From assembly GCF_004028275.1 (NCBI RefSeq), contig NZ_CP035033.1, positions 1,116,001 to 1,180,000 on the forward strand: DNA of 64,000 bases, in the 5' to 3' direction. The stretch comes from Hydrogenovibrio thermophilus (GTDB taxonomy: Bacteria > Pseudomonadota > Gammaproteobacteria > Thiomicrospirales > Thiomicrospiraceae). The notes below the pieces were generated by a model. That model ran no database searches, was not told the origin of the DNA, and saw nothing but the letters and a program-made list of their open reading frames with translations. The position numbers and the translations under genes were made by a program. Positions 60,684 to 64,000 of the stretch are shown here, piece after piece (position 1 is the first letter of the stretch; each line of letters opens with the position of its first letter).

Positions 60684-62531
60684 CTAGAAAGTCCCTCGCA
60701 AACCGAACGACACTTGTGTGCCGCCATTGCCATAGACATAGGCGGGCGTGGTGCCGTCACTTTCGTAACTGGCCACGGCACTGGTGTAATCGTCGTCGAA
60801 CAGGTTCAAGACTTTTCCGTACAGGGTGAAATGGTTGTTGAGGGCGTAATCGGCGGTGAGGTCGGTGACGAAGTATTCGCCGATTTGAGCGCCTTGTTTA
60901 TCCACTTTGTCGTACATGGTGCCGATGTAACGTGTTTCCCATCCCAGATGTAACCCGGCCAAACTGTAGTTGTCGATTTGCAATGACGCTTGTTGTTCCG
61001 GACGGTGGCTGAGCCATTGATCGTCGTCGTTTTTGGCGCTTTGGTAGGTATAACCGAGTTTTAAGTCGGTGTGAATGGCCTTGATATCGGTTTGGTAGGA
61101 GGCTTCCACGCCGTTGAATTTTGATTTGCCGGACAGGTTCTCGTAGTAATCGTTCGGCCAGGTGCCGCCGTAATTGATGAGGTTTTTGGTTTCGGTTTGG
61201 TAATAGGTCACTTCCAAGCCGTAAGCGCCCAGAGTGATGTCGTAGGCTTCGGTTTCTTCCGGTTGCAGGTCGTGAGTGGCACCGTAGGTCACTTGATAGA
61301 GTGTGGGGGCGTTATAGGCCGTTCCAACGTTAGCGCTGGCGTAAATGTCCGCGGTAAAGTAGTTTTTAATGCCGACCTTTCCGGTGACTTTGTTGTCGAA
61401 TTTGCTGAATTCGTCATAACGCAGGGCTTCGGTAATGATCAGACGGTTGCCGTTGAATTGGTTGGTGTTGTTCAGCGCCACGCCGGTGTTGTAATAGCGA
61501 CTGGTGTCACCCGAGGAGCTGTTGGTGCCTTCGAACTCCTTAGAGGTCAGGCTGGCGGCCAGTCGTTGATTGGCGGCGTATTCGTAATGGCCTTTGGCAC
61601 CGTATTCGGTGAGCTGGCCGTCATTATATTGATCGATTTCGTTTTCCAGCCAGTAGATCGATGCGTTGAGGTCATTTTGCTCGTATTGATAGCTCAGTTT
61701 TTTGATGGTGTTGCTGTAGTCGCTTTCATAAAAGGTTCCGGCCGCATCCGGATTGGTGCTGCTGTCATATTGACTGGAAGAACTGGTGTTTTTCAAAAAG
61801 GCTTCCAGACGATGACCGGCCACCGGTTTGAGTCCGATTTTCATGGAAACGTCGGTTTGTTGGAAGGCATCGTCTTCCAAACCGTCGTTGGAATGATGAT
61901 ATGGACGTACGGCCGAGAAGCCGTCGGTGGAAAGATCTGAAAGTGTGAATAGGAAGTCGGCTTTATCGCTGGAAGCCCCCAAGACCGTATTCAAACGTTG
62001 GGTGTTGTAAGTGCCGCCTTCCAGGCTGAATTGCGCTACGTTTTGCGCTTGACGGGTGACGATATTGATGACGCCGGCCGAGGCGTTGGCACCCCACACA
62101 CCGGATTGCGGACCTTTGATGATTTCAATGCGTTCCACATCGCCCAACAGCAAGGAGGAAATAATGGCGCCGCCGGTGCCCATCGGGTTGGTCATTTCAA
62201 TGCCGTCCACCATAATCAAGGTGGCGTTGTTGCTTTGACCACGCATGAAGATGGAGGTGGTTGTGCCATAACCGCCATTGCTTTTGACGGTGACGCCCGG
62301 CACAGTTTTCAGCGCTTGGGCCAGGGTTTTATATTGTTTTTCTTCGATTTCCTGTCGGGTAATGACATCGTAATCGGCGGTGACCGAATGAGCGCTTTGG
62401 TCGGTGTTGTTTGCGGACACGATGATTTTATCGAGCGATTGAGTTTCGGCCGCCTGTAGTTGGCCGGCGCATAGCACGGAAGCCAGGCCAATCGAAATTG
62501 GACTGAGTTTGCATGTTACTTTAGGGGTCAT
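60684..62531 (-). CDS. btuB: TonB-dependent vitamin B12 outer-membrane receptor
   Basis: The protein has about 615 residues from ATG 62531, with GAAGGAA 8 bp upstream and a signal peptide (LSPISIGLASVLCAGQLQAAE). A TonB-box-like DKIIVSANN, a plug domain (ITRQEIEEKQYKTLAQALKTVPGVTVKSNGG, MVDGIEMTNPMG, GPQSGVWGANASAGVINI) and a 22-strand barrel ending in GLRGTF follow. It imports cobalamin across the outer membrane. It is the first gene of the operon and lies downstream of a cobalamin riboswitch. Confidence 0.93.
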   Translation of the reverse strand: MTPKVTCKLSPISIGLASVLCAGQLQAAETQSLDKIIVSANNTDQSAHSVTADYDVITRQEIEEKQYKTLAQALKTVPGVTVKSNGGYGTTTSIFMRGQSNNATLIMVDGIEMTNPMGTGGAIISSLLLGDVERIEIIKGPQSGVWGANASAGVINIVTRQAQNVAQFSLEGGTYNTQRLNTVLGASSDKADFLFTLSDLSTDGFSAVRPYHHSNDGLEDDAFQQTDVSMKIGLKPVAGHRLEAFLKNTSSSSQYDSSTNPDAAGTFYESDYSNTIKKLSYQYEQNDLNASIYWLENEIDQYNDGQLTEYGAKGHYEYAANQRLAASLTSKEFEGTNSSSGDTSRYYNTGVALNNTNQFNGNRLIITEALRYDEFSKFDNKVTGKVGIKNYFTADIYASANVGTAYNAPTLYQVTYGATHDLQPEETEAYDITLGAYGLEVTYYQTETKNLINYGGTWPNDYYENLSGKSKFNGVEASYQTDIKAIHTDLKLGYTYQSAKNDDDQWLSHRPEQQASLQIDNYSLAGLHLGWETRYIGTMYDKVDKQGAQIGEYFVTDLTADYALNNHFTLYGKVLNLFDDDYTSAVASYESDGTTPAYVYGNGGTQVSFGLRGTF

Positions 62532-62899
62532 GGAAAGTTCCTTCGTTTGGATCAGAACCCGAATATTCCACAAATTTACACTGACCTTGCTGGTTCCTTG
62601 ATTCCACAAGCAATATTTCTTCAGTCGGTCGTAATCATTGATACGACACTTCTTCAGAAATTTCCTTGTGAAGCCAATGTCCTGCGCAATCTCAGCACAA
62701 ATTCATGAAACATTCGGGTTTGAAATCTCTTTAAGGAGATTTCTAATAACGAAGGCAAAACGGTTTACGGCGGCCGCATCAGACGGGTTGCCGTAAAAAC
62801 AGATAAAGGGTCGTTGCTAAAGGAGCATTGCGAACGAAGCCTAGAAATACCTGCCGTATTGCCCACCGCAATCGGTTTGGTGACATCTTTGTCGTTTAC
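62532..62899 (-). other. Long leader between the cobalamin riboswitch and btuB
   Basis: About 370 bp of transcribed leader separate the riboswitch from the btuB start. Two hairpins are seen: an ACGGC/GCCGT-ended stem near 62764-62797 and GAAATCTC/GGAGATTTC at about 62729-62752. A 35-codon reading frame (ATG 62886 to TGA 62779, minus strand; hydrophobic and basic, ending LRQPV) starts at the riboswitch 3' end without a good Shine-Dalgarno. No known gene is recognised. Confidence 0.5.
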
Positions 62900-63095
62900 T
62901 GTCAGGCCGGTATCCGGGCTGAAGAGCAATTCGCAGACGCCTTCTCAAAGCAATGCTTCAATGGCATGGGGTCTGGTTTTCTCTATCACCGTTGCGGGGG
63001 CAGCACTGGATTGGAAGATCACTTAAACGTGAGCTTCGCACCAGTTTCCCGTTTAACGCGTTGCCATCCATGCGAATGGCCGCGCACCTGAAGGG
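62900..63095 (-). ncRNA. Cobalamin riboswitch
   Basis: On the minus strand the ordered landmarks of the cobalamin riboswitch are present: AGGTGCGCGGCC at the 5' end, ACGGGAAACTGGTG, then the invariant GCTGCCCCCGCAAC (62991-63004 reversed). A B12 box variant GCCATTG (usual GCCACTG), GAGAAGGCG and the closing CCGGATACCGGCC follow. It should shut off btuB-cobQ-cobO-btuF when adenosylcobalamin is plentiful. Confidence 0.9.
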
Positions 63096-63098
63096 CAA

Positions 63099-63127
63099 AT
63101 ATTAAAAGGTTTGATGTGGTTTATCAA
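63099..63127 (-). promoter_or_regulatory. Sigma-70 promoter of the B12 operon
   Basis: On the minus strand TTGATA (63122-63127 reversed), a 17-bp spacer and TAATAT (63099-63104 reversed) lie directly before the riboswitch 5' end, at the expected distance for a start near 63090. Confidence 0.7.
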
Positions 63128-63152
63128 TTAAATTTAATTCAAGCTAGTATGA

Positions 63153-63311
63153 GAGAGCTTTACACGAGATAGATACACGAGTAAAAATGGCTAAAATCCG
63201 TCTGATTTTTGTTGAAAAACTGGCTAATAGCGGGCTATTAGCCAGTTTTCCGCCTCAATCAGCCAAATTTTCTCTCATTTTTTCTTCGCGTCCTACTCGT
63301 GCAAAGCTCTC
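63153..63311. mobile_element. MITE-like fold-back element, 159 bp, with 5-bp flanking repeats
   Basis: Terminal inverted repeats GAGAGCTTTACACGAG (63153-63168) and CTCGTGCAAAGCTCTC (63296-63311) match in 15 of 16 positions. The two halves pair loosely along their full length and finish in a perfect 15-bp inner hairpin around 63223-63256 (ACTGGCTAATAG / CTATTAGCCAGT). TATGA flanks both ends (63148-63152, 63312-63316), as a target duplication would. It has no coding capacity. The terminal sequence recalls IS5-like ends, but I cannot confirm that. It sits between the DsrE2 gene end and the B12 promoter and may also terminate transcription. Confidence 0.75.
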
Positions 63312-63329
63312 TATGAATGAAATTCAATA

Positions 63330-63857
63330 TTAGATGAACAGACTTTGTTCTTGTGGGGTTTGCGCAAAATAGGTGGCGGCGCCGGCAAATTCCAAACCGT
63401 CGATTAAGTCTTCCGGCTGATAGCCGAGCAGTTCCATGCTCATCTGGCAGACGGTGAATTTAACGCCAAGTTCCTGGCAGAGGGCGCGCATTTCATCGAA
63501 AGGCAGTTGGCCGTGTTTCTGCAGGGTGCGGTGAAACATCCAGGTGGCGGCGCTTGTCATGCCAGGCAGCGACCAGACGATGTCCGGTAGAAAGCGCCAG
63601 TCAACAGTTTGCAGCCAATTGGGCCCGATGGGGCTTTTCAACGGCATGCCGGGATTGCCGACCGGGGACACTTTGAGGCGGGTGGTGTCTTTCAACAGGC
63701 AGTTGATGCCGTAGAAGGTGAAGAAGATTTCCACGTCTTTGCCCATGGCCACCGCGCTGCTGGCAAGAATCATCGGCGGGTAAGACCAATCCAAAGAACC
63801 TTTGGATTGAATGATGCTGAAACTCGCCGTGTCAGGCATTGCATTTGTGTCGGTCAT
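63330..63857 (-). CDS. DsrE2-like sulfur-carrier family protein (DsrE/DsrF/DrsH)
   Basis: The 175-residue protein has SIIQSKGSLDWSYPPMILASSAVAMGKDVEIFFTFYGINCL, a KVSPVGNPGMPLKSP loop, a helix SLPGMTSAATWMFH and the C-terminal CQELGVKFTVCQMSMELLGYQPEDLIDGLEFAGAATYF. Both Cys of the DsrE2-type CxxxGVxxxxC block are kept. Proteins of this family carry sulfane sulfur in sulfur oxidisers, often with TusA and rhodanese partners. No membrane segment is certain. A perfect CCAGGCCTGG palindrome lies upstream of the ATG. Confidence 0.82.
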   Translation of the reverse strand: MTDTNAMPDTASFSIIQSKGSLDWSYPPMILASSAVAMGKDVEIFFTFYGINCLLKDTTRLKVSPVGNPGMPLKSPIGPNWLQTVDWRFLPDIVWSLPGMTSAATWMFHRTLQKHGQLPFDEMRALCQELGVKFTVCQMSMELLGYQPEDLIDGLEFAGAATYFAQTPQEQSLFI

Positions 63858-63882
63858 GGGAACATCCTTGTGCGTTGTCTTA

Positions 63883-63906
63883 AAAATGGCCAGGCCTGGC
63901 CGTTTT
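63883..63906 (-). terminator. Palindromic terminator (CCAGGCCTGG family)
   Basis: CCAGGCCTGG (63890-63899) extended by AAAATGG / CCGTTTT gives a near-perfect 24-bp palindrome. It lies after the stop of the partial gene at 63918 and before the DsrE2 gene, so it should end the former's transcription. Confidence 0.7.
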
Positions 63907-63917
63907 AGGAACTTCTG

Positions 63918-64000
63918 TTAGGAATCGCTTGGTTTCTGCTCGTCGGACGGGGCCAGCATTTTTTGCGTCAAACCATAAGACAACCACAAGGCGGGCAGAA
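63918..64000 (-). CDS. C-terminal end of an unidentified gene (partial)
   Basis: On the minus strand a frame is open from the window edge to TAA at 63918-63920. It reads LPALWLSYGLTQKMLAPSDEQ and a short polar tail. The first residues look like the end of a membrane helix. It is directly followed by a terminator, which supports a gene end, but the fragment is too short to name. Confidence 0.45.
   Translation of the reverse strand, partial: LPALWLSYGLTQKMLAPSDEQKPSDS

Follow-up and report, generated by a model that had tools for sequence, protein, structure and literature searches.

A 159-bp palindromic MITE with IS5-type ends upstream of a cobalamin riboswitch in Hydrogenovibrio thermophilus, and a wider gammaproteobacterial hairpin family

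Genomic context and anatomy of the element

The window, i.e., the whole 64,000-bp stretch analyzed from the Hydrogenovibrio thermophilus genome (G000; one contig, 2.61 Mb), carries near its right edge a B12 locus in which a cobalamin riboswitch and a DsrE2-like gene, both on the minus strand, are separated by a palindromic element. The following features were identified (positions are those of the window).

60684 to 62609, minus strand: TonB-dependent receptor, BtuB-like, after the riboswitch (PF00593/PF07715; TIGR01779 238 bits, under the cut-off of 599.7)
62888 to 63106, minus strand: cobalamin riboswitch aptamer (RF00174; 96.1 bits, gathering threshold 31.5)
63099 to 63127, minus strand: candidate B12-operon promoter, sigma-70-like TTGATA-17-TAATAT (consensus match only)
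63148 to 63152, no strand: left target-site duplication TATGA (from the sequence; single at the empty site of the relative G009)
63153 to 63168, plus strand: left terminal inverted repeat GAGAGCTTTACACGAG (from the sequence; end pattern with at most one mismatch counted across 58 genomes)
63153 to 63311, no strand: miniature inverted-repeat transposable element (MITE), 159 bp, imperfect palindrome over nearly its full length (at least 19 genome copies; strand-corrected alignment A3; covariation)
63216 to 63249, no strand: central hairpin with conserved core AATAGC-NN-GCTATT (perfect 16-bp stem in the window copy only; core class-wide)
63296 to 63311, minus strand: right terminal inverted repeat, minus-strand reading GAGAGCTTTGCACGAG (from the sequence)
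63312 to 63316, no strand: right target-site duplication TATGA (from the sequence)
63330 to 63857, minus strand: DsrE2-like gene (PF13686, 124 bits; NF047629, 160 bits, under the cut-off of 210)

Downstream of the riboswitch, profile searches identified the BtuB-like TonB receptor, whose real start may lie further in, followed by cobyric acid synthase, corrinoid adenosyltransferase, and a BtuF-like protein. The stop codon of the DsrE2-like gene is 18 bp away from the element. A previous sequence-only reading had described an element of 159 bp whose 16-bp terminal inverted repeats (TIRs) carry one mismatch, together with TATGA flanks and a perfect inner hairpin, all of which were confirmed from the sequence. 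The TIRs are complementary at 15 of 16 positions (a repeat finder gave 17-nt arms, 94%), the element ends read GAGAGCTTT, and the inner hairpin arms (63216–63231 and 63234–63249) form 16 perfect base pairs with a loop of 2 nt. No ORF of 60 aa or more overlapped the 159-bp element, which is thus non-coding.

Four promoter-like sites were detected in the region 62850–63400, compared with 0.9 (sd 1.0) in shuffled sequences; two of them were TTGATA-17-TAATAT with either spacing, and the other two were weak plus-strand sites within the element. The TTGATA at 63127 sits approximately 20 bp from TATGA, which agrees with the distance between the element and the −35 claimed previously. The −35 hexamer and the stretch to the element, which the letter-by-letter comparison covers, differed by one base from G009, and the −10 region lies in a stretch 98% identical to that genome. 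A simple terminator scan at the locus passed no terminator. On the minus strand, the perfect inner stem pairs most of its own T tract.

Copies in the genome and in relatives

Other copies had been proposed as a check on mobility, and they were found both in the window genome, which contained at least 19 dispersed element places derived from 30 matches listed, and in 12 of 36 other genomes. The surplus among the 30 corresponded to the same places on the opposite strand or split in two pieces. The copy studied here had been regarded as the only one in the window, which holds among the matches listed; the next copy starts 857 bp past the right edge (G000:C1:1180857). Sixteen of the 19 copies were 149–164 bp long, and the others were 79, 177, and 195 bp; diverged ends elsewhere in the genome suggest a few more copies. 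Based on a simple ORF call (ATG starts, at least 70 aa), none of the 19 copies interrupted a long frame, one overlapped a possibly spurious 94-aa ORF, and 14 were located between co-directional genes.

The second copy (G000:C1:1180857–1181019; L014, and about 3858–4020 in L069) is 1.7 kb off and lies 27 bp before a cytochrome b561 gene. Its site is also empty in G009, though diverged there, so that dsrE2 and a DUF1841 gene lie between two recent insertions. A short palindrome around CCAGGCCTGG (window 63880–63906) recurs in G000, G002, G006, G008, and G009 and is also found beside another gene (L066, about 3795), representing a separate small dispersed palindrome family.

Including the window genome, element matches were obtained in 13 of 37 genomes, with G035 matching through the core alone. 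The end pattern (at most one mismatch) was present in 32 of 58 genomes of the bacterial family, with up to 272 sites in one genome, and its backwards control gave 0–1 hits per genome. No element match was found in the plasmid and phage collections. The end pattern gave five hits in viral contigs, which were judged to be chance, none having a good facing partner. The core pattern gave two hits in a contig collection: a Thiomicrorhabdus cannonii copy with both ends and a Sulfurospirillum bin without such ends. The 222-bp copy of T. cannonii (L132:6746–6967) seems to have been invaded by other short hairpin-like repeats, one of them with CTCGGCTCTACAGCCGAG.

Shorter versions of 77–110 bp with both ends were also observed (G048:C1:471260–471369 and 2036187–2036296; G061:C1:356326–356403; L118:3085–3171; L119:2985–3070; L122:858–934). 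Two of the three that were read, L118 and L122, had exact 5-bp duplications, as if the element body could be trimmed and yet spread.

Target-site duplications and empty sites

Identical 5-mers flanked 24 of 55 copies, compared with a mean of 0.94 and no more than 5 in 2000 permutations. Identical 6-, 7-, and 8-mers flanked 1, 0, and 0 copies, respectively. Because L003/L055 and L009/L110 each represent one site in two genomes, the count is better given as 23 of 53 sites. Among 59 held-out copies from G014, G060, G048, G046, and G040, most of which were chosen as pairs of good ends, 31 showed exact 5-bp duplications (permuted mean 1.2, maximum 6); G014 and G060 had also contributed other copies to the first set of 55.

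The closest relative found, G009, aligned to window positions 62700–63152 at 98% and to 63312–64000 at 97%, and these two flank matches overlapped by exactly five bases. The junction in G009 reads ...CCAGTATGAATGAAATTC... with one TATGA, i.e., the empty site that the sequence-only reading had proposed to look for. Ten of the 19 copies of the window genome were placed in G009 by both flanks, using 17 stretches fetched by expected position and three further loci, and nine remained unplaced; six of the placed sites were empty and four filled. The empty sites comprised three with a clean single 5-bp sequence (TATGA, ATTTT, and TATTT), one with 4 bp, and two that were unreadable. For one of the nine unplaced copies, L009, a 37-bp remnant with both ends was found on another contig of G009 (C2:9041; L110:3001–3037); it is flanked by ATTGT like the full copy L009 of the window genome, and is probably a hairpin collapsed by internal deletion.

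Six genus members (G009, G008, G004, G005, G006, and G002) had adjacent dsrE2 and riboswitch hits, with gaps of −5 to 165 bp, and the remaining four gave no such pair. Among the matches listed, no element was present at these six junctions; the same-site presence in all relatives that had been named as evidence against a mobile element was thus absent.

Search for a transposase partner

An insertion sequence (IS) of 1249–1252 bp, the left end of which is identical to GAGACCTTTGCACGAG over 16 bp, was found in G047, a genome of the same bacterial family (genus g6). Seven ends were fetched from G047, representing four near-full IS copies and three deleted derivatives (L154, L159, and L160), which retain both ends. 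Three of the four near-full copies were flanked by 5-bp duplications (AGCTT, ATCTT, and AATAA) and the fourth had no clean one. One copy (element of 1,251 bp) harbored an intact 324-aa transposase frame with matches to Pfam DDE_Tnp_1 and DUF772 and to NCBIfam IS5_4 (transpos_IS5_4, NF033581; 271 bits, cut-off 140). Four more such ends were found in G051, each within 500 bp of contig ends. The IS5-like partner suspected in the sequence-only reading was therefore recovered as an IS5-family IS with the same left end, but in another genus, and none was found in the window genome itself.

Relatives of the G047 transposase were encoded in 12 of 58 genomes of the bacterial family and in none of the 11 genomes of the window's genus, G000 included. 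A PF01609 search gave nothing in G000, and within the genus only three loci in G002. Inspected by eye, the 55 end-like sites of G000 (18 in the backwards control at equal laxness) included no good facing pair at IS distance. One pair 2.5 kb apart (1894600/1897061) had a 3-mismatch end and was judged to be chance, and a solo TIR at G000:C1:2280730 was rejected as an IS end, having no transposase there. Searches with PF01609 in five and PF13586 in 14 MITE-bearing genomes yielded G056 transposases with other ends, which we take to be IS4-like, and one G002 remnant, presumably IS982-like. In the G056 loci (L086–L107), PF01609 matched 21 transposase copies, which fall into at least two kinds and whose ends include CACTAGTGTCCGG and CACTGCTGTCCC; the same genome is the one with 272 MITE-end sites.

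The ISs of G047, G045, and G069 are 1.24–1.26 kb long, 68–77% alike as DNA where aligned, and share at least the first 17 bp; those of G045 and G069 had no clean 5-bp duplication. By its ends, the MITE is IS5-family-derived, matching 16 of 16 bp on the left (GAGACC form) and only approximately 12 bp on the right, and its duplication length matches that of the G047 IS. The window copy carries G at end position 5, where intact ISs have C, and GAGAGC ends also occur on an IS remnant in G019 and on an end in G017 resembling an IS remnant of G060. By an arithmetic estimate, about 0.06 exact chance hits of the 16-bp end are expected in 58 genomes of about 2.3 Mb. All MITE–IS matches longer than 16 bp were at the ends (17–22 bp), so the MITE is related to the three ISs by ends alone; an origin as a type I MITE, by internal deletion of such an IS, was rejected, no inner sequence being common with them. 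ISNme1, with the TIR GAGACCTTTGCAAAA, is listed as an IS5-family element, and a 12-bp end identical to that of the MITE is given for ISNme1 and, with variants, for a Porphyromonas MITE (relevant sections of PMC4596501).

Folding, covariation, and strand asymmetry

Folded as RNA, the window element reached −62.1 kcal/mol on the plus strand (z −9.1) and −82 kcal/mol on the minus strand (z −12.5), with 0 of 200 shuffles as good in either case. The strand difference was 19.9 kcal/mol, compared with 3.3 (sd 3.7) expected from composition. In A3, a strand-corrected alignment of 36 copies, both sides were changed in 25 of 53 pairs and 95.7% of cells were paired (0 of 500 shuffles as high), and registers slid by 1–3 columns gave 41–50% pairing. 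Arm-to-arm correction alone could yield this covariation. The perfect inner stem is peculiar to the window copy, with 16 of 16 pairs, whereas none of the 35 other copies exceeds 12; a sister copy that is 94% identical (L002) retains the common mismatched arm, and clustered differences in the window copy turn its right arm into the exact complement of the left. Quasipalindrome correction is an arm-templated mechanism, and the right-arm changes would match what is expected of it.

The strand reading GAGGCGGAAAAC folded better in all 36 copies of A3 and in all 59 held-out copies (95 of 95). In a strand-neutral map of 93 copies, from which one copy was dropped for ambiguous orientation and one for length, A.C-dominated columns exceeded G.T-dominated columns at four rising thresholds (25/7, 22/5, 13/4, and 10/2; p = 0.002, 0.002, 0.05, and 0.04), in a test conceived after seeing the folds and with copies that share ancestry. 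The smaller column test on A3 alone, superseded by this map, gave 12 versus 1 at the laxest threshold. Changes leaving a Watson–Crick pair, counted by parsimony with ties broken at random, were A.C rather than G.T in approximately 103 versus 40 cases on terminal branches and 34 versus 6 on internal ones, averaged over 20 runs. Arm mismatches on the better-folding strand are wobble-compatible. A general mutational strand bias was rejected as the cause of the asymmetry because the 29 unpaired columns lean the opposite way (0.51 and 0.42 versus 1.36 and 1.26). Folding in this family appears to be maintained on a single strand.

The orientation of the stable strand relative to host genes showed no bias over 37 copies: 15 were with and 12 against tandem genes, 13 to 14 after 3′ ends, and 20 to 14 before 5′ ends. 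This absence of bias argues against selection at each insertion site.

A wider gammaproteobacterial family with two kinds of ends

Two 160-bp palindromes in G035, which belongs to another family, have GGAACCTCTGAT ends with TTAA or TTAG duplications and resemble the window element in the central part only. The core pattern (at most three mismatches) was found in 22 of 369 gammaproteobacterial genomes including G000, corresponding to 19 of 272 genera, and its backwards control found none. Among 30 core loci fetched, 23 had both ends, five had no ends according to the script, and two were too near a contig end; 20 of the 23 elements were 157–160 bp long. Ends like GAGACCTTTGCAC occurred in G187, G139, G256, G000, and G133 (assigned by eye, G133 having been grouped by the script with the other kind), and the remaining 18 of the 23 had GGAACCTCTGAT-like ends. 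No clean 5-bp duplication was found for the GAGACCTTTGCAC-like elements in other families (G187, G139, G133, and G256). The arms beyond the core differ between the two kinds, and their shared body would reflect either end exchange or long divergence.

The minus strand was more stable in 22 of the 23 elements, the exception being L268, which has doubtful ends. In the GGAACCTCTGAT kind, of which 16 were folded (L256 and L268 being excluded for doubtful ends), the minus strand was more stable in all 16, with means of −71.7 versus −52.0 and a difference of −19.7 versus −6.3 (sd 4.4) from composition. The column test was weaker in this kind (18/7, 13/3, and 7/3 at rising thresholds; p = 0.04, 0.02, and 0.34), and its two most uniform columns were G.T. 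No Rfam family was above threshold in the window element or in six related loci, and sub-threshold hits were eukaryotic only.

Origin of the element and its possible effect on the B12 locus

The palindrome at 63153–63311 is indeed a MITE, inserted recently and bearing IS5-type ends. The TIRs, the dispersed copies, the 5-bp duplications, and the empty site in G009 support the MITE reading made from the sequence alone, and an IS of the same bacterial family shares the 16-bp left end and has an intact frame. From these ends we infer that the G047-type IS group would be the mover. An IS5-family DDE transposase (NCBIfam transpos_IS5_4), acting in trans from an element that was not detected in the present-day window genome, would recognize the 16-bp ends and place the MITE at the TATGA lying between dsrE2 and the promoter of the cobalamin riboswitch, duplicating these 5 bp; the insertion would postdate the split from G009. 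We consider this full account, i.e., a MITE mobilized in trans by an IS5-family transposase and inserted at TATGA after that split, to be highly probable, and the nature of the palindrome ahead of the B12 promoter to be settled for this locus.

The covariation, the constant identity of the better-folding strand, and the run of the window copy's perfect inner stem into UUUUU on the minus strand would also fit a repeated structured RNA or bidirectional terminator that is selected by the host and retained for its hairpin, mobility being incidental. This is unlikely, considering the empty site in G009, the scattered copies with 5-bp duplications, the lack of any Rfam family above threshold, and the negative terminator scan; moreover, the orientation of the stable strand does not follow host transcription (15 copies with it, 12 against), and the perfect stem is peculiar to a single copy. 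Slightly less probable again is a MITE of another transposase (of Tn3 type or another IS family) whose match to IS5 ends is convergence. No IS5 partner was found in the 11 genomes of the genus and the right IS end matches in part only, but a 16-bp identity at an IS end is hardly expected by chance, the G047 duplications are of equal length, and L154, L159, and L160 keep both IS ends. Tn3-type elements also make 5-bp duplications, and their ends are 38 bp long and begin with GGGG; the MITE ends differ from these, and a Tn3-derived TIME was rejected on this point. An old insertion followed by precise excision from G009 is very unlikely. Hairpins do shrink, as the 37-bp G009 remnant at the apparent site of L009 illustrates, but a scar remained after that known loss, G009 would have to have lost several copies precisely and independently, and five further relatives with the same junction show no element among the matches listed.

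The IS5-type MITE inserted at the B12 site would most likely have a mild effect. Read-through transcripts from dsrE2 would include a 159-nt hairpin ahead of the riboswitch leader, in the minus-strand sense, which is the more stable one. It is conceivable, if somewhat doubtful, that the hairpin could stop or process dsrE2 read-through and thereby insulate the leader; the negative terminator scan and the stable strand's lack of preference for the host transcript over 37 copies argue against insulation. That the element reshapes or insulates the B12 promoter, as proposed from the sequence, stays a suggestion. The filled site of G000 and the empty site of G009 form a natural pair for measuring an effect on read-through.

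Bacterial MITEs are commonly viewed as inert leftovers of a single IS. In the present case, the hairpin body has a near-constant length and core and occurs with different ends in many families, and recent insertions occur in a genus whose 11 genomes yielded no matching transposase. We tentatively put forward a hairpin module, approximately 159 bp long and occurring across the class Gammaproteobacteria, that may be carried on at least two end sets (GAGA-S-CTTTGCAC, which in the window's family makes 5-bp duplications, and GGAACCTCTGAT with 4-bp duplications) and whose pairing may be maintained as RNA on one particular strand, in which case it would be more than passive cargo. Selection would then act on the transcript of that strand, perhaps during propagation of the element and not at individual insertion sites. 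If the one-strand wobble-compatible pairing holds, selection of bacterial MITEs as RNA becomes testable. No paper on this hairpin family was among the literature matches listed, which does not prove that none exists. What deserves further work is the wider family, with a common core, two kinds of ends, and one-strand folding.

Comparison with known systems

Correia, ERIC, and RUP-type repeats are short, mostly intergenic, and MITE-like, with TA-type duplications. They differ from the window family in these duplications and in their ends, and are set apart here by description, not by sequence. Correia and RUP are treated as short MITE-like repeats, and a Correia copy in mRNA is described as cut by RNase III (relevant parts of PMC10969869).

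Closer in their ends are BrickBuilt of Porphyromonas gingivalis and ATR of Neisseria meningitidis, which are presented in the sections of PMC4596501 concerning them as MITEs with IS5-family ends and no transposase. ISNme1 is named there as the proposed parent of ATR, by its ends, and BrickBuilt copies are intergenic and related to an IS by ends alone (PMC4596501). Both have ends that equal GAGACCTTTGCA or nearly so, as IS5-family elements do (PMC4596501). BrickBuilt contains a 23-nt minisatellite and makes duplications of varying length (PMC4596501), whereas the window family is a palindrome of nearly fixed length (159–160 bp) that makes 5-bp duplications and has a common core.

The ISs of G047, G045, and G069 resemble the window family in their first 16–17 bp, which correspond to the GAGACC form of the MITE end, and, in G047, in the 5-bp duplications. 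They differ from it in being coding elements of 1.24–1.26 kb that match the MITE over more than 16 bp at the ends only. The palindromes of approximately 159 bp with GGAACCTCTGAT ends in other gammaproteobacteria are unlike the window family in their ends and in their 4-bp duplications where readable (TTAA, TTAG, CTAA, and TAAA), and share with it the length, the central core, and the strand asymmetry.
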